NCBI GenBank assembly: GCA_022564295.1
Contig: JADFLR010000018.1
Span: 1 to 64,000, forward strand
DNA from: Bacteroidota bacterium
Lineage (GTDB): Bacteria; Bacteroidota; Ignavibacteria; Ignavibacteriales; Ignavibacteriaceae
Direction: 5' to 3'
DNA length: 64,000 nucleotides
Numbering within the stretch: position 1 is the stretch's first letter; each line of letters opens with the position of its first letter. Shown here piece by piece: positions 26,587 through 36,533 of this stretch. A program made the position numbers and the translations under genes. Below the pieces are notes generated by a model. That model searched no databases and had not been told where the DNA came from. It saw only the letters and a program-made list of their open reading frames with translations.

Positions 26587-27546
26587 ATGAAAAAGATCGG
26601 AATTTTATTCGGACAGGAAAAATCCTTTCCTCCTGCATTTATTGAAAGAGTAAACTCAAAAAATGAAGATGAGATAACTGCTGAGTTTGTAAAGATAGAT
26701 AAAGTAATACAGGGAGAACTGTGTGGATATGATGTGATAATCGATCGTATTTCGCAGGATGTCCCCTTCTATCGTTCATACCTTAAAAACGCTGCTGTAA
26801 GCGGAACTGCGGTTATTAATAACCCTTTTTGGTGGAGTGCCGATGAGAAATTTTTCAACAATGCTTTAATGACAAAATTAAATATTGCCGTACCGAAAAC
26901 TGTTTTGCTTCCGTCAAACCAGAATCCTGACGATACTGATTCTAATTCGTTCAGAAATTTATCCTTCCCGATGGATTGGGATTCTATTTTCGATTATGTA
27001 GGATTTCCTGCATTCTTCAAACCATTTGCCGGTGGTGGATGGAAAAATGTTTACCGGCTTGAAAACCCCGATGACTTTTTTAAAGCATATAATGAAACCG
27101 GACAGCTTGTGATGATGCTGCAGGAAGAAATTGATTTTACCGAATACTTTCGTATTTACTGTTTGGATAGATCTGATGTTCACATAATGAGATACGCTCC
27201 TAAAGAACCGCACCATAAAAGATATGTTCAGAATCCGGAACCGATTGAAAGAGAGCTGCTTGTAAAGTTAACCGAAACTGTTCTGAGTATAAACTTTGCA
27301 CTCGGTTATGATTTTAACACCGTGGAACTTGCAATAAGGGACGGGGTTCCTTACGCAATTGATTTTTGCAATCCCGCTCCCGATGCTGAAATAAATTCCG
27401 TTGGTAAAGAAAATTTTGAATGGATTGTTGAAGCTGCTGTAAATATGGCAATAAGAAGGGCAAAGCAGCATAAACTAAACCAAAATAACCTTACCTGGGG
27501 AAGTTTTATAACTCAATTTGCAAAGAATAAGGGTATAGCATATTAA
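26587..27546 (+). CDS. ATP-grasp domain protein, first gene of a putative amide-ligase cluster
   Basis: The 319-residue cytoplasmic protein looks like an RimK/glutathione-synthetase-like ATP-grasp ligase. The ATP-binding lysine is probably Lys145 in FFKPFAGGGWKNVYRL, adenine contacts lie near MMLQEEIDF (about 176-184), and the metal-binding residues near Glu247, Asp259 and Asn262 (TVELAIRDGV, AIDFCNPAPDAE). ATP-grasp enzymes join a carboxylate to an amine through an acyl phosphate. The substrate is unknown. It begins a same-strand group with a GCS2-type ligase 18 nt downstream, which suggests sequential ligations on one small molecule. Confidence 0.75.
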   Translation: MKKIGILFGQEKSFPPAFIERVNSKNEDEITAEFVKIDKVIQGELCGYDVIIDRISQDVPFYRSYLKNAAVSGTAVINNPFWWSADEKFFNNALMTKLNIAVPKTVLLPSNQNPDDTDSNSFRNLSFPMDWDSIFDYVGFPAFFKPFAGGGWKNVYRLENPDDFFKAYNETGQLVMMLQEEIDFTEYFRIYCLDRSDVHIMRYAPKEPHHKRYVQNPEPIERELLVKLTETVLSINFALGYDFNTVELAIRDGVPYAIDFCNPAPDAEINSVGKENFEWIVEAAVNMAIRRAKQHKLNQNNLTWGSFITQFAKNKGIAY

Positions 27547-27564
27547 ACAAAATGGATAGCAATA

Positions 27565-28683
27565 ATGACTGACCCAGGACTTTTTACTTTAGGTATTGAA
27601 GAAGAATTTCAGATTGTTGATCCTGAAACGGGAGAGCTTCGTTCACGTGTTCAGGAAATATTGGAAGATGGTAAAGTTATACTTGCCGAAAGGGTGAAAT
27701 CTGAAATGCACCAATCTGTTGTAGAAATGGGAACAGATATTTGCCGTGATATTCATGATGCTCGCGAACAAGTAATTGATTTAAGAACCAAATTAGCTAT
27801 GCTGGCAAGGAAAAACGGACTAGCAATTGCAGCCGCCGGGACACATCCGTTCTCTCATTGGAAAGACCAAAAGATAACCGATCAGCCGCATTATCATGAG
27901 ATAATTGCAAATATGCAGCAGGTTGCAAGAGCAAATCTTATCTTTGGTCTGCACGTTCACGTTGGTGTTGAAGACCGCGAAATTGCTTTGCATATTATGA
28001 ATGCCGCAAGATATTTTCTTCCGCACATTTTTGCACTTTCTACAAACTCACCTTTTTGGTTAGGCAGAAATACCGGTTTTAAATCGTACCGTAGTAAAGT
28101 ATTCGATAGATTCCCGCGAACAGGAATTCCCGATTACTTCAGCAGCATTGCCGAATACGATAATTTTATCAAACTATTAATTAAAACCAAATGCATAGAC
28201 AGCGCTAAAAAAATATGGTGGGATATACGAGCACATCCCGTTTTTAAAACACTTGAATTTAGAATTTGCGATTTGCCAATGCGTGTGGATGAAACTATTT
28301 GCCTTGCAGCATTAATACAGGCAATAGTTGCAAAATTACATAAACTTATAAAACAAAATCTTGGTTTTCGTTTATACAGAAGAGCACTGATAGCCGAGAA
28401 TAAATGGAGAGCAGCACGATACGGTATACAAGGTAAACTGATAGATTTTGGTAAACAGGAAGAAGTTGATTTTAGATTATTAGCCAAAGAGTTATGCGAA
28501 TTTGTTGATGATGTTGTTGATGAATTGGGTTCACGCGAGGAAGTAAGTTATATAAACAAAATATTAGAAACAGGGACAGGAGCAGACAGGCAGCTTAAAG
28601 TTTGGGAAGAAACAAAAGATTTTAAAAAACTTATGGATTACATCATCGAAGAAACTCATCAGGGTCTTTCTGTTTTAAAATAA
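27565..28683 (+). CDS. Carboxylate-amine ligase, GCS2/YbdK family
   Basis: The 372-residue protein is a full-length member of the YbdK-type glutamate-cysteine ligase 2 family. It shows LGIEEEFQIVDPETGEL, HQSVVEMGTDIC, AAAGTHPFSHW, GLHVHVGVEDRE and WWDIRAHPVFKTLEFRICD, which hold the ATP, metal and substrate residues. Family members form a gamma-glutamyl amide or similar bond from ATP, a carboxylate and an amine; some make gamma-glutamylcysteine weakly, and EgtA in ergothioneine synthesis is related. The real substrate is not known. Its neighbours are two ATP-grasp proteins and a GATase, all on the same strand. Confidence 0.88.
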   Translation: MTDPGLFTLGIEEEFQIVDPETGELRSRVQEILEDGKVILAERVKSEMHQSVVEMGTDICRDIHDAREQVIDLRTKLAMLARKNGLAIAAAGTHPFSHWKDQKITDQPHYHEIIANMQQVARANLIFGLHVHVGVEDREIALHIMNAARYFLPHIFALSTNSPFWLGRNTGFKSYRSKVFDRFPRTGIPDYFSSIAEYDNFIKLLIKTKCIDSAKKIWWDIRAHPVFKTLEFRICDLPMRVDETICLAALIQAIVAKLHKLIKQNLGFRLYRRALIAENKWRAARYGIQGKLIDFGKQEEVDFRLLAKELCEFVDDVVDELGSREEVSYINKILETGTGADRQLKVWEETKDFKKLMDYIIEETHQGLSVLK

Positions 28684-28803
28684 TCTTTCTCAATAACTCA
28701 CAATATGCAAATACGCCACTAAGATCAGAAAGCAATAAATATCTTTATACAAAAAATAAAAATAGCAACAATAGATTTATACAATAACGAACGCAATGAA
28801 GGT

Positions 28804-29577
28804 ATGCGCTGTATAGGTGAAATAGTTGAAGAGACAAAGAAAAAGTTCAACGATTTAGATATATCTTATAATGTTTACGAAACAAGATTTAAAGAAGATA
28901 TTCCTGGTATTGATTCTGATATTTTTATTTCTTCCGGTGGACCGGGCAGCCCTTTTGATGGCAAAGGGAAAAAATGGGAAAAGGATTATTTTAATTTGAT
29001 TGAAAAGATTTATTCCCATAATCAAACAAATACCGATAAGAAAAAATATATATTCTTTATTTGTCATTCTTTTCAGATGATGGCAAGATTTTTTGAGTTC
29101 GGTAAAGTAAATAAACGTAATTCAAAATCAATTGGCGTAATGCCTTTTGAAAAAACCGAATCAGGTAAAACAAATATTATCTTAGAACAATTACCGAATC
29201 CCTTTTATGCTGCAGATATAAGAGAATACCAGGTTACAAATCCAAATAAAAAAGTTATTAATGATATGCGAGCAAATATTTTATCATACGAAATTCTTGA
29301 TGATAACGCAGTGGGCGAATCTGCAATAGCAGCAGTTAGAATAAGTAACGAGATAGTCGGCACACAATTTCATCCCGAAGCAGATCCGGAAAGTATGCTT
29401 TATCATTTTAACAGACCTGATGAGAAGAAACAGATTATTGATTCTTACGGTGAAGAAAAATACAATCGGATGTTAGAAATATTACAGGAACCAAATGCAG
29501 TAAAACTAACACGCAAAACCGTTATCCCTAATTTCTTAAATAAGGCAATTGATGAATTAAATAAGGTATTAAATTAA
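28804..29577 (+). CDS. Class I glutamine amidotransferase-like protein; true start probably upstream
   Basis: The protein is a class I GATase with a likely triad of Cys87 (FICHSFQMM), His190 and Glu192 (TQFHPEADPES), numbered from ATG 28804. It should release ammonia from glutamine or hydrolyse a gamma-glutamyl amide, as PuuD does. The nucleophile elbow lacks the usual GxC. In-frame codons 28756-28803 read IKIATIDLYNNERNEG, the expected first beta strand, but no ATG, GTG or TTG lies between the stop at 28720 and 28804. ATA 28756 stands where a start would be expected. Either ATA is used, the start has mutated, or the base is an error. The next gene starts 5 nt after the stop. Confidence 0.8.
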   Translation: MRCIGEIVEETKKKFNDLDISYNVYETRFKEDIPGIDSDIFISSGGPGSPFDGKGKKWEKDYFNLIEKIYSHNQTNTDKKKYIFFICHSFQMMARFFEFGKVNKRNSKSIGVMPFEKTESGKTNIILEQLPNPFYAADIREYQVTNPNKKVINDMRANILSYEILDDNAVGESAIAAVRISNEIVGTQFHPEADPESMLYHFNRPDEKKQIIDSYGEEKYNRMLEILQEPNAVKLTRKTVIPNFLNKAIDELNKVLN

Positions 29578-29582
29578 ATTTT

Positions 29583-30761
29583 ATGATTCCAGAATTAAGA
29601 AAGAAGTTCAACTCTGAATTTACTGTTCATAAATACGACACATTCCTTAATGAACTGAACTCTTCTTTTCAATATCCCCCAGATTTCAGGGTTGCAGAAA
29701 CACCAATATTTCTACCGGCTGAAATAAAAGATGAATTGATAAATGCCTGCAATGATATTTTAGTACAAATACAAAACGATGAGTTCAAAAATAGATCCGA
29801 AAACGCAATCCCGAAAGACCTTGTTGTTCCAAATGAAAGTGCTCATCCCGAATTTTTACAAATTGATTTTGCTATTTGTGAAAACCCGGATGGCTCTTTC
29901 TTGCCTAAATTGATTGAGCTTCAGGGATTCCCAACCGTTTACGGTTACCAGTTTTTTCTTGCACGGCTCATTAAAAAACACTTTAATATTGAAGATGGTT
30001 TCACTCCATTTTTCAGTTCATTAGATGAGCAAGGATACGTTTCGGAACTACGAAATTTAATTGTTGGAGAAAGTGATCCTGAAAATGTAATCTTGCTTGA
30101 AATCCAACCTGAGAAACAAAAAACCAAAATTGATTTTTCAGCTACAGAAAAATTATTAGGAATAACAACCGTATGCATTTCAGATGTTGTTCAGGAAGGT
30201 AGAAAGCTCTTTTATAAAAATAACGGAAAAGCAATTCCGATTGAAAGAATGTATAACAGGGTAATTTTTGATGACTTAAAGAGAAACGATATAGCTTTCA
30301 ATTTTAATTATAAGGATGAACTTGATGTAAAGTGGATTTCACATCCAAATTGGTTTTTTAAGATCAGTAAATATTCTTTGCCGTTACTAAAAGGCAAGTA
30401 TGTACCCGAATGTTATTTCCTGAATGAACTATCCGGCTTTTCTGATGATTTAAGTAATTACGTTTTAAAACCTCTCTTTTCATTCGCCGGTCACGGTGTT
30501 GAAGTTGATCTGAACAAAAATATTTTGGATGCTATTGAAGACCCCGATAATTATATACTTCAGAAGAAAATTGAGTATGCCCCAATCATTAAAACACCTG
30601 ATGAAAACTCAAAAGTAGAAATAAGGATGATGTTTTTATGGGATGAAAAACCGCTGCTTGTAAATAACCTGGTAAGAATGAGTAAAGGTAAAATGATGGG
30701 AGTGGATTTCAATAAAAATAAAACATGGGTTGGTTCAACTCTTGCTTTTCATGAAGAATGA
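29583..30761 (+). CDS. ATP-grasp-like protein, fourth gene of the putative amide-ligase cluster
   Basis: The 392-residue protein has no signal peptide. It shows a putative ATP-grasp lysine in YVLKPLFSFAGHGVEVD (about residues 290-305) and metal/substrate residues in VEIRMMFLWDEKPLLVNNLV (about 345-365). The N-terminal half contains LPKLIELQGFPTVYGYQFF, conserved-looking and perhaps a substrate-binding region. I cannot name the family. It starts 5 nt after the GATase, and the four genes probably form one operon. A paired-palindrome repeat follows its stop. Confidence 0.65.
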   Translation: MIPELRKKFNSEFTVHKYDTFLNELNSSFQYPPDFRVAETPIFLPAEIKDELINACNDILVQIQNDEFKNRSENAIPKDLVVPNESAHPEFLQIDFAICENPDGSFLPKLIELQGFPTVYGYQFFLARLIKKHFNIEDGFTPFFSSLDEQGYVSELRNLIVGESDPENVILLEIQPEKQKTKIDFSATEKLLGITTVCISDVVQEGRKLFYKNNGKAIPIERMYNRVIFDDLKRNDIAFNFNYKDELDVKWISHPNWFFKISKYSLPLLKGKYVPECYFLNELSGFSDDLSNYVLKPLFSFAGHGVEVDLNKNILDAIEDPDNYILQKKIEYAPIIKTPDENSKVEIRMMFLWDEKPLLVNNLVRMSKGKMMGVDFNKNKTWVGSTLAFHEE

Positions 30762-30812
30762 AGTTATTCATCCGCTTATCGGGACTTAAATAAATGAGTC
30801 TTCTAAAAAAAT

Positions 30813-30882
30813 GTCATTTCCGTGAAAACGGGAATCTATAAACTTCAGATTTTGAAGGGATTCCCACTTGCGTGGGAATGAC
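30813..30882. repeat. Paired ATTCCC-N8-GGGAAT palindromes, copy 1
   Basis: The 70-bp element begins GTCATTTCC and ends GGGAATGAC. It contains two hairpins, ATTTCC-N8-GGGAAT (30816-30835, one mismatch) and ATTCCC-N8-GGGAAT (30860-30879), and is itself an imperfect dyad. A second copy lies at 50252-50320. The unit matches the dRS3 repeat pattern described in Neisseria. It sits between the convergent amide-ligase and ggt genes, where it may also act as a bidirectional terminator. Confidence 0.85.
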
Positions 30883-30944
30883 AGATAATTTAATAATGTT
30901 TTTCGAGTGAACTCACAAATAATTATTTAACAATAGCCTGTATA

Positions 30945-32681
30945 TCAAAAACCTTCAGCCGAACCGTTCCCTCTTGAATCGGATGCACCGTAGATAATCT
31001 TATTGTTTTGATCAATCATTATTCCCTGTACTAAACCGATAGTGGTAATACGATCATTCATATCGGAAAAGTCATAGCCCATTTTAACTAGATTTTCCAT
31101 CGCATCTTTATTTATTGCAAACTTCTCAAAATAAATTTTATCAGGCATCCATTGATGATGAATCCTTGGCATATCAACTGCTTCCTGTATGTTCATATTA
31201 AAATCAATACAATTCATAAGGACCTGCAACACTGTTGTAATTATCATTGATCCACCGGGAGAACCCAAGATTAAATATGGTTTATTGTCTTTTAATACAA
31301 TTGTGGGCGTCATAGAGCTAAGCATCCTTTTCCCCGGTTCTATTGCATTTGCATCTGTGCCTAACAAACCAAACTGGTTTGAGACTCCCGGCTTTTCACT
31401 AAAGTCATTCATTTCATTATTAAGCAAAAAACCTGCTCCCTCCACAACTACTTTAGAACCAAATGCGGAATTCAAAGTTGTGGTTACGCTTACTGCATTA
31501 CCCAGATTATCGTAAACAGAATAATGTGTTGTTTCCGTACTCTCGTAATATCTTAATGAATCGCCGGTAAATATTTCTGCAGAAGGAACGGCATTATCTT
31601 TTATTCTCTCAAAAATTGTTTTAGCATATTCTTTTGAAATTAAGTCATCAATTGGTACGGGATAAAAATCGGCATCACCTAAATGGTATGTTCTATCTAC
31701 AAAAACATATTTCATTGCTTCCACTATTCGATGTAGATACTGGCTGCTTCCCCATTCATCTTTTTCAAAATTGAAATTCTCTAAAATGTTTAATAGCTGT
31801 ATAAGTGCAATTCCTCCGGAACTTGGCGGCGCCATAGAAATGATTTTATATTCTCTGTAACTTCCAATAATTGGTTCTCTCTCAACAGGTTCATATTTCT
31901 CGAGATCAGCGTGTGTTATAAACCCTCCCATATCCATCATCTGCTGAACAAAAAGATCGGAAACTTTTCCTTTATAAAAACCATCTAATCCTCTATCTCT
32001 TATTTGCTTTAAAGTCCATGCAAGTTCAGGTTGTTTAAATAAATCTCCTTCTTTATATGGCACACCGTTATTTGTAAAAATCCTTAATGAAGAGGGATAC
32101 TTACTAAACACTTCCAAAAATTTGTAAAATGATTCGGCATCTTGACTCTCCAAAGTCCAGCCGTTATCTGCCAGATCAATCGCAGGTTGAATCACTTTTG
32201 AAAGTTTCATGGTTCCGTATCTTTCGAGTGCATAAATTAAACCCGACACACTTCCGGGGACACCAACTGATGCTGCACCTTCCAAACTCATGTTTTCAAT
32301 TACGTTTCCATATTTATCGAGATACATATCCCTGTATGCTGTAAATGGAGCTCTTTCCCTGAAATCAATAGTGGTGTTATTCCCTTCTTGCAAATGAATT
32401 ACCATAAAACCGCCGCCGCCAATGTTTCCAGCGTAAGGGTAAGTAACTGCTAAAGCAAAACCTACTGCAACTGCCGCATCTACAGCATTTCCGCCAGCTT
32501 TAAGAATTTCAACTCCCACCTTAGAAGCAATTTTATTTGCAGAAACAACCATTCCGTTTTTTGATTTAAAAGGTTTTGATGCTGCAGTTATGTTAAATTG
32601 AATTATGGAAAAAATTGAAAGAATAAGGATTAAATATATTTTTGCGAAAATTGAGATAAGCCCTGCTTTATTTGAAATCAT
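30945..32681 (-). CDS. ggt: Gamma-glutamyltranspeptidase
   Basis: GGT hydrolyses or transfers the gamma-glutamyl group of glutathione-like compounds and acts in the periplasm. The 578-residue precursor has an N-terminal hydrophobic signal segment (about 10-35). It should self-cleave before Thr384 in ESTETTHYSVYDN, the new N-terminal nucleophile of the small subunit. Other family segments are NAVDAAVAVGFALAVT, NIGGGGFMVIH, IDFRERAP and ILGSPGGSMIITTVLQV. It converges on the amide-ligase cluster, which makes it a candidate turnover enzyme for the cluster's product, as inference. Otherwise it is an ordinary GGT. Confidence 0.92.
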   Translation of the reverse strand: MISNKAGLISIFAKIYLILILSIFSIIQFNITAASKPFKSKNGMVVSANKIASKVGVEILKAGGNAVDAAVAVGFALAVTYPYAGNIGGGGFMVIHLQEGNNTTIDFRERAPFTAYRDMYLDKYGNVIENMSLEGAASVGVPGSVSGLIYALERYGTMKLSKVIQPAIDLADNGWTLESQDAESFYKFLEVFSKYPSSLRIFTNNGVPYKEGDLFKQPELAWTLKQIRDRGLDGFYKGKVSDLFVQQMMDMGGFITHADLEKYEPVEREPIIGSYREYKIISMAPPSSGGIALIQLLNILENFNFEKDEWGSSQYLHRIVEAMKYVFVDRTYHLGDADFYPVPIDDLISKEYAKTIFERIKDNAVPSAEIFTGDSLRYYESTETTHYSVYDNLGNAVSVTTTLNSAFGSKVVVEGAGFLLNNEMNDFSEKPGVSNQFGLLGTDANAIEPGKRMLSSMTPTIVLKDNKPYLILGSPGGSMIITTVLQVLMNCIDFNMNIQEAVDMPRIHHQWMPDKIYFEKFAINKDAMENLVKMGYDFSDMNDRITTIGLVQGIMIDQNNKIIYGASDSRGNGSAEGF

Positions 32682-32840: not shown

Positions 32841-35800
32841 ATGACAAATCACGATTTCCACATATCCAAATCTACGAGAATAAAATACAAGTTTGATGAT
32901 TCGTTTTATTCCTTGAAAGGTAATTTAATTATTGCCAATTCTCAAGCTGCTCGTTATATATCAGATAAGATTAACGGGGTAAGAAAAAATGAAGGAGCTT
33001 TTGATCAGTTAACCACAGCAGGTGAGATAAATGCATTAGGCATTTTACATGAGGTTTATCATTATTTAATAAATCATTATGTACAAAAGGAAAATCCCGG
33101 TGTAATTAAGCGAAGTATCGATTTTCTTAAATCAGCACTTAACGAAGAAAAACTAAATAAGGTTCTTCTCAAATTCGTTGAAGAATTTCCACCGCTTGAT
33201 GTTTATAAAGGAAAAATTAAAACCGAAGAATATCTTAATGGAAAGACCGGGAATAAATCAAACAAAGAATTGATCCTCGAAGAGTTGATCATTCTGCACT
33301 TTGAAAATACTAATCCTGCCGCCACAAGGTTAAATGAGTTATTCTCAGATAAAATTTTAAAAGAAAATACTCTTTACAATGAATTAATAAAAAGAACAGA
33401 AGAATTTTTCGATAAAGAAAACCCAACAGGATTTGGTGGATTACACCTGTTTTCCGTGCTTCGCAAACCGATAACAAGCAACCCGTACAATTTGGAAGAA
33501 CAACTTCTCTTCATTAAAAATGAATGGGGATTGATACTTGATGATATGCTTTTGAGCAGACTGCTTAAAGGTACAGATTTGATTAGAGAAGATTACAAAC
33601 TTTTTGTAAAACATGGCGGCGGTGAAAAGGCAACTCCTCCTGTTCCTGAATACAGACACGAAACCGATTCGCTAAAATCATTAAGTAAAGAAAAAGATGC
33701 TGCAATCAGTTTGGAAGAAACCGAACAATTTACCGATGACACACATTGGATGCCCGAAGTTGTGATGATAGCTAAAAATATTTATGTGTGGATGCATCAG
33801 CTTTCAGAAAAATATGGATACAAGATTAAAAGACTGAATGAAATTCCGGATGCAGAATTAGATACTCTTGCGGAGTGGAATTTTACTTCACTCTGGTTAA
33901 TTGGTATTTGGGAAAGAAGCAGTGCAAGTAAAAAAATAAAACAGCTAACCGGTAATCCCGAAGCTGCTGCATCAGCTTATTCTTTATATGATTATGTTAT
34001 TGCAAACGAACTTGGCGGTGAAGATGCGTTTAATGATCTTAAACATCGTGCAGGAATACGAGGAATAAAATTAGCGAGCGATATAGTACCTAATCATACT
34101 GGTATTTATTCAAAATGGGTAGTTGAAAAACCGGACTATTTTATTCGTACAAGTATTCCGCCTTATCACAATTACTCCTTTACAGGTGTCAATCTTTCTG
34201 AGGATGAACGCGTTGAGATAAGGATTGAAGATAAATACTATACACGTGAAGATGCTGCAGTTGTGTTAGAAAGAAAAGACAACTACACCGGGGAAAAAGT
34301 TTATATTTACCACGGCAACGACGGCACAAATATGCCATGGAATGACACTGCGCAATTAAACCTATTAAATCCGGAAGTAAGAGAAGCACTCATTCAAACA
34401 ATTAAACACGTTGCACAAAAAACACCTATCATCCGGTTTGATGCTGCTATGACTTTAACACAAAAGCATTACCAGCGCTTATGGTTTCCCGAACCAGGAA
34501 AAGGTGGGGCAATTCCATCACGCTCCGATTATTCTCTGACCAAAAAAGAATTTCATGAACAGATGCCTGTTGAATTCTGGAGAGAAGTTGTTGACAGAAT
34601 AAATGAGGAGATGCCGAATACATTGCTGCTTGCCGAAGCATTCTGGCTGATGGAAGGTTACTTTGTAAGAACGTTAGGAATGCACCGTGTTTACAACAGT
34701 GCATTTATGCATATGCTTATGAAGGAAGAAAATGACAAGTACAGAAAACTCATATCCAATACACTCGAATTTAATCCTGAAATATTAAAACGCTACGTTA
34801 ATTTTATGAGCAACCCTGATGAAGAAACCGCAGTTAACCAATTTGGCAAAGGCGATAAATATTTTGGTGTTGCTGTGATGATGGTTACTTTGCCGGGGCT
34901 TCCTATGTTTGGTCACGGACAGATTGAGGGTTTTTCTGAAAAATACGGTATGGAATACAAACGGGCTTATTATGACGAAGTAATTGATGATCATCTTGTG
35001 TGGAGACATAAAAGAGAAATTTTTCCTTTGTTGAAAATGCGTCATCTATTCAGCCAGGTTGATAACTTTGAGCTTTACGATTATATAAACACAAACGAAC
35101 AATTAAATGAAAATGTTTTTGCCTACAGCAATAAATCCGGAAACGAAACAGCATTTGTAATCTACAATAACTCGTACGAAACTTGCGAAGGAAAGATCAA
35201 ATATTCGAATCCAAAGTCAACAAATGGTAATATTAAACCTCCCAAAGATATTGCTGCTATACTTAGTTTTAAAGCTGATCCCTTTTATTACTACATTTAC
35301 ACAGACCACAGAACGCAACTACAATTTCTTTTATCGGGAAAAGAAGTAAACCAAGATGGCTTCAAAATTAAATTATTCGGATATCAGTACAGAATTTGCC
35401 TTAATTTCAGAGAAGTGTATGATGAAAACGGTGCATATAAAAAATTGCTTGAATACCTGAACGGTAAAGGCGTTGCATCTATTGATGAAGCTTTGCTTGA
35501 AATGGAAATGATACCGCTTCACAGTGCATTGGAAGAATTTTTAGCTCCGCCGAACATCCGCGAAATAAGGAATTATGTTTTCCAATCAGAAGTAAAAGAA
35601 AAAACCCGAAGGAAAAAGAAGAGTCCGCAAATTTCACCATCAATACAAGATGGAATGTCATCCTTAATGAAGGAGACGCTTAAGTATAATAAGAAAATTC
35701 CTGAGGATGATGTTGAAACTAAATCGTTTTTTGAAATATTAGAAAATGTAAAAGATTTTTATGAATTGTGGTGGCGTTACAATAAAAGAAAAACAGTTCC

Positions 35801-36533
35801 CCGGTGGATGAAGGAAGCTGAGACGTTTTTACCTCTAAGTGCAAAAAAAGAAAGTAATAATAAATTTTGTATTTACTCATCCTTCCTAACAGTTGATAAT
35901 ATACTAACAAACCACACTGCAAATAGATTAATTAATTTTGATAGATTTCTTCTTGCTAAACCAATTATTCAAATTTTAACTCAACATGCAGATGAAGATG
36001 AAGCTCGTGCAAACACTCAACTGATTAAATCATTGATCGTTTTTAATGATGAATTGAAAAGTATTAAAATAAAGATCAAGAAGAAAAAGAATGAAGGTAT
36101 AACTCAGGTTAAGAAATATCGTTCACCATTGAATAAAATACCTTTTTCTGAATTGCTTATCAATCAAAACGTAAGTAACTTTTTACAACTAAATAAGTTT
36201 GGTGATATCACTTATTTCAATAAAGAAAGATTTGAAAACCTAATTGAATGGCTGTACCAGTTAGTAGCTATCCAATCCTTTTCATCATACAAAAAAACCC
36301 TTAAAGAATTAAAAGATAAGAATACCAAAAAGGGCAAAACGAAAAAGAAATTAACTAAGCAGGATTTAGAAAGAGAATTAATAAATTCAATTAAAGGTAG
36401 TTTTCTATCTGCAAAAAACTTAAAGTGGCTTGCTGAAGAATCAGGTTATGATTTAACAAAACTTAGCAGCAGTCTGATAAATATTAAAAAGAGAAATAAT
36501 AAACACAAGAAGGAAGAAAGTAGTGAGATATAA
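32841..36533 (+). CDS. Very long GH13 (alpha-amylase superfamily) protein
   Basis: The 1230-residue protein has no signal peptide. The central (beta/alpha)8 domain (roughly residues 310-780) shows conserved region I SDIVPNHTG (about 415), the nucleophile Asp in IIRFDAAMT (about 530) and the acid/base Glu in LLLAEAFWLM (about 595). It should act on alpha-glucosidic bonds or transfer glucosyl groups. About 300 N-terminal and 400 C-terminal residues match nothing I recognise; the latter are Lys/Glu-rich. The N-terminal part contains LHEVYHYL, an HExxH match near residue 70 that may be chance. It overlaps the following gene by 11 nt. Confidence 0.85.
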   Translation: MTNHDFHISKSTRIKYKFDDSFYSLKGNLIIANSQAARYISDKINGVRKNEGAFDQLTTAGEINALGILHEVYHYLINHYVQKENPGVIKRSIDFLKSALNEEKLNKVLLKFVEEFPPLDVYKGKIKTEEYLNGKTGNKSNKELILEELIILHFENTNPAATRLNELFSDKILKENTLYNELIKRTEEFFDKENPTGFGGLHLFSVLRKPITSNPYNLEEQLLFIKNEWGLILDDMLLSRLLKGTDLIREDYKLFVKHGGGEKATPPVPEYRHETDSLKSLSKEKDAAISLEETEQFTDDTHWMPEVVMIAKNIYVWMHQLSEKYGYKIKRLNEIPDAELDTLAEWNFTSLWLIGIWERSSASKKIKQLTGNPEAAASAYSLYDYVIANELGGEDAFNDLKHRAGIRGIKLASDIVPNHTGIYSKWVVEKPDYFIRTSIPPYHNYSFTGVNLSEDERVEIRIEDKYYTREDAAVVLERKDNYTGEKVYIYHGNDGTNMPWNDTAQLNLLNPEVREALIQTIKHVAQKTPIIRFDAAMTLTQKHYQRLWFPEPGKGGAIPSRSDYSLTKKEFHEQMPVEFWREVVDRINEEMPNTLLLAEAFWLMEGYFVRTLGMHRVYNSAFMHMLMKEENDKYRKLISNTLEFNPEILKRYVNFMSNPDEETAVNQFGKGDKYFGVAVMMVTLPGLPMFGHGQIEGFSEKYGMEYKRAYYDEVIDDHLVWRHKREIFPLLKMRHLFSQVDNFELYDYINTNEQLNENVFAYSNKSGNETAFVIYNNSYETCEGKIKYSNPKSTNGNIKPPKDIAAILSFKADPFYYYIYTDHRTQLQFLLSGKEVNQDGFKIKLFGYQYRICLNFREVYDENGAYKKLLEYLNGKGVASIDEALLEMEMIPLHSALEEFLAPPNIREIRNYVFQSEVKEKTRRKKKSPQISPSIQDGMSSLMKETLKYNKKIPEDDVETKSFFEILENVKDFYELWWRYNKRKTVPRWMKEAETFLPLSAKKESNNKFCIYSSFLTVDNILTNHTANRLINFDRFLLAKPIIQILTQHADEDEARANTQLIKSLIVFNDELKSIKIKIKKKKNEGITQVKKYRSPLNKIPFSELLINQNVSNFLQLNKFGDITYFNKERFENLIEWLYQLVAIQSFSSYKKTLKELKDKNTKKGKTKKKLTKQDLERELINSIKGSFLSAKNLKWLAEESGYDLTKLSSSLINIKKRNNKHKKEESSEI

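Follow-up and report, generated by a model that had tools for sequence, protein, structure and literature searches.

A run of four same-strand genes, here named G1 to G4, lies in a stretch of 64,000 nucleotides (nt) from a Bacteroidota bacterium (assembly GCA_022564295.1, contig JADFLR010000018.1, positions 1 to 64,000 of the forward strand), which as a whole is called the window in the following. The predicted products are three ATP-using ligases of different kinds and one protein resembling amide hydrolases. Judged from sequence comparisons, the four genes belong together as a single conserved functional module whose enzymes act on amide bonds. Such a module had been proposed in an earlier note on this DNA, and it is supported here by co-inheritance and by conserved gene order across genomes. 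The four genes are:

G1, 26587-27546, + strand, 319 amino acids (aa): predicted ATP-grasp ligase of the RimK/LysX/D-Ala-D-Ala ligase fold
G2, 27565-28683, + strand, 372 aa: predicted GCS2/YbdK-type carboxylate-amine ligase
G3, 28741-29577 (start uncertain, first ATG at 28804), + strand: class I glutamine amidotransferase (GATase)-like protein
G4, 29583-30761, + strand, 392 aa: predicted ATP-grasp ligase of the YgiC/glutathionylspermidine synthetase/eukaryotic-type glutathione synthetase fold

The intergenic gaps measure 18 nt between G1 and G2, 120 nt between G2 and the ATG at 28804, and 5 nt between G3 and G4. The window coordinates bear out the layout described previously, with four same-strand genes separated by 18, about 120 and 5 nt and a convergent gamma-glutamyltranspeptidase gene (ggt). 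Comparisons were made with 61 genomes of the family Ignavibacteriaceae, with 296 genomes of the phylum Bacteroidota, and with the best 80 of at least 589 confirmed G4 relatives from a scan of genome contigs, referred to as named loci. Genomes and loci carry three-digit labels beginning with G and L, respectively.

Family and fold assignments

G2 scored above the curated cut-offs of both PF04107 (GCS2; 227.9 versus 21 bits) and NF010039 (545.6 versus 371), and its profile matched YbdK (1r8g) with an E-value of 6.9e-56. The motif G[VI]EEE is kept in 54 out of 56 relatives from the named loci. By the Pfam and NCBIfam cut-offs, the G2 sequence is classed as a member of the GCS2/YbdK carboxylate-amine ligases. 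According to the accessible text of PMC2588565, enzymes of the GCS2 superfamily usually activate the gamma-carboxylate of glutamate.

No Pfam family was found for G1 at an E-value of 0.1, and its score against the rimK_fam model TIGR00768 was 21.9 bits at a cut-off of 143.4, which leaves it outside the RimK family in this sense. Single-sequence searches of solved structures gave only weak matches for G1 as well as for G4, and the profile search with G1 pointed to D-Ala ligase (E 0.001). The AlphaFold model of G1 (predicted local distance difference test score, pLDDT, 88.6) aligned with RimK 7qys_E in VIA-align with a Z-score of 22.5 and a root-mean-square deviation (rmsd) of 2.8 Å over 264 residues, and other RimK and LysX/ArgX entries tied with it as best fold match. 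On the basis of this model, G1 is a predicted ATP-grasp protein of the RimK/LysX/D-Ala-D-Ala ligase-like fold. Its motifs KP[FHY]xGGGW and [AV]ID[FY]xNPAPD occur in 53 and 52 out of 56 named-locus relatives, respectively.

G4 likewise gave no Pfam match at an E-value of 0.1, the glutathionylspermidine synthase family included. Its profile matched YgiC with an E-value of 0.0079 over 74 columns only. The AlphaFold model (pLDDT 92.5) aligned with YgiC (7uk8) over 341 of 392 residues (Z 26.3, rmsd 3.5 Å), and further VIA-align matches were the glutathionylspermidine (Gsp) synthetase/amidase of E. coli (2io7_A, Z 24.4), human GSS (2hgs, Z 23.4), Cp1B (9cjn, Z 23.0) and 2vpm_B (Z 22.0). The top Foldseek match was yeast GSS (1m0w_A, E 1.4e-14). 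By its overall predicted fold, G4 is placed with YgiC/YjfC, glutathionylspermidine synthetase and eukaryotic-type glutathione synthetase. All 37 aligned sequences share E112 and Q114, and L[IV]E[LMV]Q[GA]FP, the surrounding pattern, was found in 62 out of 77 named-locus sequences. Going by motif, this E-x-Q may correspond to the N-terminal E-x-N pair of Cp1B (E163, N165) given in the accessible part of PMC12568646. A P-loop-like stretch, KPLxSFAGxGV, lies near the C-terminus. Together with the fold match, the order of these motifs is consistent with a circularly permuted ATP-grasp of the glutathione synthetase type.

G3 exceeded the cut-off of PF00117 (GATase; 40.3 versus 22.8 bits), and a profile search returned no match at an E-value of 0.01. 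C103, H206 and E208 (numbered from position 28756) are invariant in 14 family sequences, the GGPG loop is kept, and FHPEAD is present in 34 out of 35 named-locus relatives. The PF00117 score and the Cys-His-Glu triad class the sequence as a class I GATase. The previous type calls were thereby upheld, those of G2 and G3 by Pfam cut-offs and those of G1 and G4 as ATP-grasp proteins by predicted folds.

Conservation of the G3 frame extends 5' of the first ATG at 28804, and relatives start about 20 residues earlier. In three loci of the same genus (L032, L033, L034) the start ATG of G3 aligns with an ATC at 28741-28743 of the window, and no ATG, GTG or TTG is present in 28741-28803, the stretch corresponding to the conserved N-terminus. 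A start at 28804 would drop this first stretch, which suggests a rare ATC start, the loss of a start codon or a sequence error. The true gap between G2 and G3 is thus probably 57 nt instead of 120 nt.

Co-inheritance and the exchange of G3

Among the 61 family genomes, G2 and G4 were found in the identical 36, and G1 in these 36 and in G018 and G059. At E < 1e-80, 32 out of the 36 cluster genomes have G3 and the remaining 25 family genomes all lack it; this count excludes one weak match (E 1.5e-4) in G049. In 8 of the 32 genomes with G3, for instance G009 and G050, it is located on another contig than G2 and G4. Hence, its association with the cluster outlasts the loss of linkage.

In the 296 phylum genomes, G1 was detected in 107, G3 in 69, G4 in 91, and G2 in 92 after 10 out of 102 matches with E-values above 1e-120 had been dropped. 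Co-occurrence was found for G1 and G4 in 88 genomes, for G2 and G4 in 86, for G1 and G2 in 89, and for G1 and G3 in 68 of the 69 genomes with G3. Fisher p-values for the pairs among G1, G2 and G4 ranged from 5.8e-52 to 1.9e-60, although these overstate the case because related genomes are not independent. All four genes were found in 49 genomes.

Of the 80 named loci, 56 contain G1, 56 G2, 35 G3, 32 an alpha/beta hydrolase resembling esterases (EST; PF00561/PF00756), 19 a protein of the M29 peptidase type, 28 a second esterase (c5) and 3 a GH13 gene. G4 itself was called as an open reading frame (ORF) in 79 out of 80, the exception being L115. Upstream gene content was counted wherever at least 4.5 kb precede G4, which holds for 60 loci; 19 with less were left out. 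There, G1 was found on the same strand upstream of G4 in 47 loci, and either G3 or the M29 type in 41, the two never together. EST, G1, G2 and G3 form the upstream set in 17 loci and M29, G1 and G2 in 11, two of which also have EST; one locus has M29 and G2 alone. EST is not adjacent to the window cluster.

By record title, with many metagenome-assembled genomes among them, loci with G1, G2 and G4 belong to Ignavibacteria, Bacteroidetes, Verrucomicrobia (L127, L149), Calditrichaeota (L089) and Cloacimonetes (L090). Within the Bacteroidetes they occur in Chitinophaga, Spirosoma, Dyadobacter and Gelidibacter, so that the carriers of the module include genera with named strains. Records titled Acidobacteria and Thermoanaerobaculia have G4 only (L128) or G2 and G4 (L151).

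The earlier note had held that the cluster would be a chance grouping if its homologues were not linked in other genomes. This comparison was made, and linkage was found in the family, in the phylum and in the named loci. That the four genes have unrelated roles and came together by chance is extremely improbable: the order is kept in distant lineages, co-inheritance persists where G3 is unlinked, and the counts already refute this explanation. What speaks for it is that the adjoining ggt and GH13 genes are incidental or limited to the family, respectively. The preserved order and the co-inheritance with unlinked G3 would instead suggest that many environmental Bacteroidota and their relatives make a metabolite that has been overlooked.

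Four cluster genomes of the family lack G3 (G006, G007, G032, G033), and they carry a gene for an M29-type protein of 339 aa between G2 and G4. The corresponding loci are L037, L038, L042 and L081, the last with the coordinates of G033. The profile of this protein matched AmpS (E 1e-5). In the phylum sample the M29 type was counted at E <= 1e-60 in 6 genomes, all of which carry G1, G2 and G4 and none of which carries G3. Among the genomes with G1, G2 and G4, the M29 type was thus found in 0 out of 49 with G3 and in 6 out of 34 without it (p 0.0036, for genomes that share ancestry).

That a metallopeptidase-like enzyme can take the place of G3 speaks for a hydrolytic function of G3. The same is suggested by its nucleophile turn. 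The usual turn of class I GATases is C-x-G-x-Q, which was seen in only 1 out of 35 named-locus relatives, whereas 29 of them have C-H-S-[FY]. Class I GATases usually free ammonia from glutamine for a partner enzyme, and from this general working mode one would expect G3 to be a glutaminase subunit feeding ammonia to a ligase, most likely G4, with a primary carboxamide as product. The retained Cys-His-Glu triad and GGPG loop fit this role, as do the end of G3 5 nt before G4 and its usual position directly upstream of G4 where the two are linked. However, an M29 aminopeptidase-like enzyme, which is not an expected source of ammonia, occupies the slot of G3 in several lineages, the nucleophile turn departs from the usual one, and G3 resides on a separate contig in a quarter of its family genomes (8/32). 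We therefore regard a glutaminase function as unlikely. The swap of a GATase-like for a metallo-aminopeptidase-like protein in the same slot may rather be a clue that some proteins filed as glutamine amidotransferases act as amide hydrolases.

A candidate pathway and its relation to known systems

Three kinds of ATP-using ligase together with one amide-hydrolase-like protein suggest that a small amide compound is built up and trimmed in steps. We see an about even chance that a small gamma-glutamyl pseudopeptide is assembled in the cytoplasm by ATP-dependent ligases on a non-ribosomal route and trimmed by an amide hydrolase that is exchangeable between lineages, in a scheme resembling that of glutathione and glutathionylspermidine. 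Substrates, order and direction of the steps, and product would be as follows. G2 would phosphorylate a carboxylate and couple an amine to yield gamma-Glu-X, G1 would extend this by an amino acid through ATP-driven acyl-phosphate chemistry, and G4 would attach another amino acid or an amine to the growing chain. In a final role, G3, or the M29-type protein in other lineages, would hydrolyze one amide bond and thereby strip a gamma-glutamyl protecting residue or recycle the product, like the amidase half of glutathionylspermidine synthetase/amidase. EST accompanies the module in many lineages. More tentatively, and with rather less confidence, the product may be a new gamma-glutamyl pseudopeptide, possibly amine-capped in the manner of glutathionylspermidine, of an unnamed pathway present in at least five phyla by record titles, which would combine three ligase folds with a hydrolase for which two unrelated enzymes have replaced each other in evolution, one a thiol hydrolase of GATase fold and the other an M29 metallopeptidase.

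Several observations weigh against this proposal. Neither G3 nor the M29 type was found in 28 out of the 83 phylum genomes with G1, G2 and G4, which indicates that the hydrolase may be dispensable or replaced by something not found, and in some of these genomes (e.g. G087, G119, G323) the three ligase genes lie apart. No strong G2 match was obtained in 5 out of the 91 genomes with G4, and a linked G2 is missing in some lineages, as in the Saprospiraceae loci L112, L121 and L142 with G1, G3 and G4 only. Hence, formation of gamma-Glu-X as first step cannot be universal. No partner gene was present upstream of G4 in 6 out of 60 named loci, and 15 genomes have G1 and G3 and no G4. Six regions of the latter kind (L159-L164) were fetched. 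In L160 and L162, the two in which the slot protein was scanned, it matched CP_ATPgrasp_2 below the cut-off (E 1.8e-5 and 8e-7), and in L159 the ORF caller recovered neither G1 nor G3. The window copy of G3, moreover, is devoid of a standard start codon, and YgiC, the nearest fold to G4, does not have the same activity as Gsp according to the accessible part of PMC12506659. Missing G2 and hydrolase-less genomes speak against a single fixed pathway.

In fold, G4 resembles glutathionylspermidine synthetase/amidase and trypanothione synthetase along with YgiC/YjfC, and in the cluster, too, a ligase is paired with an amide-hydrolase-like protein. By contrast, the GATase-like or M29 protein of the cluster is encoded separately instead of being fused as a domain, the cluster has two more ligases, and G4 lacks a Pfam match. 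The accessible text of PMC12568646 cites YgiC and YjfC as peptidylpolyamine synthetases. The same text describes Cp1B of the E-64 pathway, which shares its fold with G4 and links L-amino acids with a small dicarboxylic acid in a stepwise amide synthesis that does not involve a non-ribosomal peptide synthetase. Cp1B is fungal, however, and its partner there is an adenylating amide synthetase, not a ligase of GCS2 or RimK type.

Amidoligase operons in which ATP-grasp and GCS2 ligases are linked with peptidases of unrelated folds were reportedly described by Iyer and others in 2009. PMC2588565, as far as its text was accessible, predicts that glutathione-like peptides are made where a ligase of GCS2 size neighbours a thiol peptidase resembling GATases. 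This prediction of ligase and GATase-like peptidase pairs implies that the kind of system is already known. Unlike the window cluster, those neighbourhoods involve another ligase family and occur in proteobacteria and firmicutes, and the accessible text names neither an ATP-grasp pair nor an exchange for M29. In the portion of the literature covered by our searches, no description of the exact set of G1, G2, G3 or M29, and G4 was found.

The closest solved folds of G1, RimK and LysX/ArgX, act on protein carriers. They would accord with a protein-tagging system in which G1 adds amino acids to a protein in the manner of RimK, the other ligases extend the tag, and G3 or M29 removes it. We consider this quite improbable, since the partners resemble small-molecule ligases (GCS2 and glutathione synthetase/YgiC). 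Also, among ORFs of at least 80 aa, shorter ones not having been looked for, no cluster of proteins with a median length below 150 aa was found in more than 6 out of the 80 named neighbourhoods.

The glutathione pathway, too, combines a GCS2-family ligase (gamma-glutamylcysteine ligase) with a ligase of glutathione synthetase fold, and this recipe would favor a low-molecular-weight thiol replacing glutathione or bacillithiol as product. The cluster differs from this pathway by a RimK-fold ligase, a GATase or M29 hydrolase and often an esterase; gamma-Glu-Cys-Gly needs no further ligase or hydrolase. In addition, BshC was found in the window genome and in 55 out of 61 family genomes overall, comprising 33 out of 36 with and 22 out of 25 without the cluster (p = 0.68). 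A thiol product, suggested as one option in the earlier note, is weakened by these counts, and a thiol that replaces glutathione or bacillithiol appears rather improbable; a thiol serving some special purpose is conceivable. Specifically, replacement of bacillithiol is not favored because bshC is present with or without the cluster alike; other thiol pathways were not searched for.

Neighbouring genes and locus variants

Two genes follow G4 in the window:

ggt, 30945-32681, - strand: gamma-glutamyltranspeptidase (TIGR00066), a neighbour judged to lie outside the module
GH13 gene, 32841-36533, + strand, 1230 aa: alpha-amylase-like protein (PF00128), non-core

The ggt product scored 615.7 against TIGR00066 (cut-off 357.85). 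A role of ggt in the pathway, which had been suggested before, was not supported. It adjoins the cluster in 0 out of 20 other family loci and 0 out of 80 named loci, whose flanks vary in length, and it lies between G4 and the GH13 gene solely in the window genome among the 21 family loci compared. Three cluster genomes of the same genus (G013, G038, G051) lack it, and its presence in 31 out of 36 family genomes with the cluster versus 18 out of 25 without it gave a Fisher p of 0.20. As it is neither linked nor co-inherited with the cluster, ggt was rejected as a pathway member. The GH13 protein (39.2 bits, cut-off 22) has long unassigned flanks. Its gene follows G4 in the window and in 14 out of 20 fetched family loci and is found in 3 out of 80 named loci. 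It was accordingly rejected as a core gene, its usual place downstream of the cluster being confined to this family.

An anti-phage defence system was also rejected, as PADLOC models matched 0 out of 6 proteins at an E-value of 0.001. A site scan yielded 15 promoter-like sites against 27.8 expected and 7 terminator-like sites against 3.8 expected (standard deviation 1.7); all 7 of the latter are intragenic and were not used as evidence. No inverted repeat was reported for 30700-30950, though one had been suspected by eye.

Some named loci carry additional genes. A class III aminotransferase (c17) is encoded directly 3' of G4 on the same strand in L131, L146, L147 and L152 and is possibly a clue to an amine or amino-acid substrate. 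In the Flavobacteriaceae loci L123 (12307-15034), L126, L135, L136, L143 and L155, an extra ATP-grasp_4 protein (c11) and an M17 leucyl aminopeptidase (c16) are encoded beside the second esterase c5 on the opposite strand. In two genomes from the class of the window organism, the gene that follows G1 (L173:6650-8182 and L178:7726-9228) resembles, by eye, a histidine/aromatic ammonia-lyase, and G4 is located elsewhere in these genomes.

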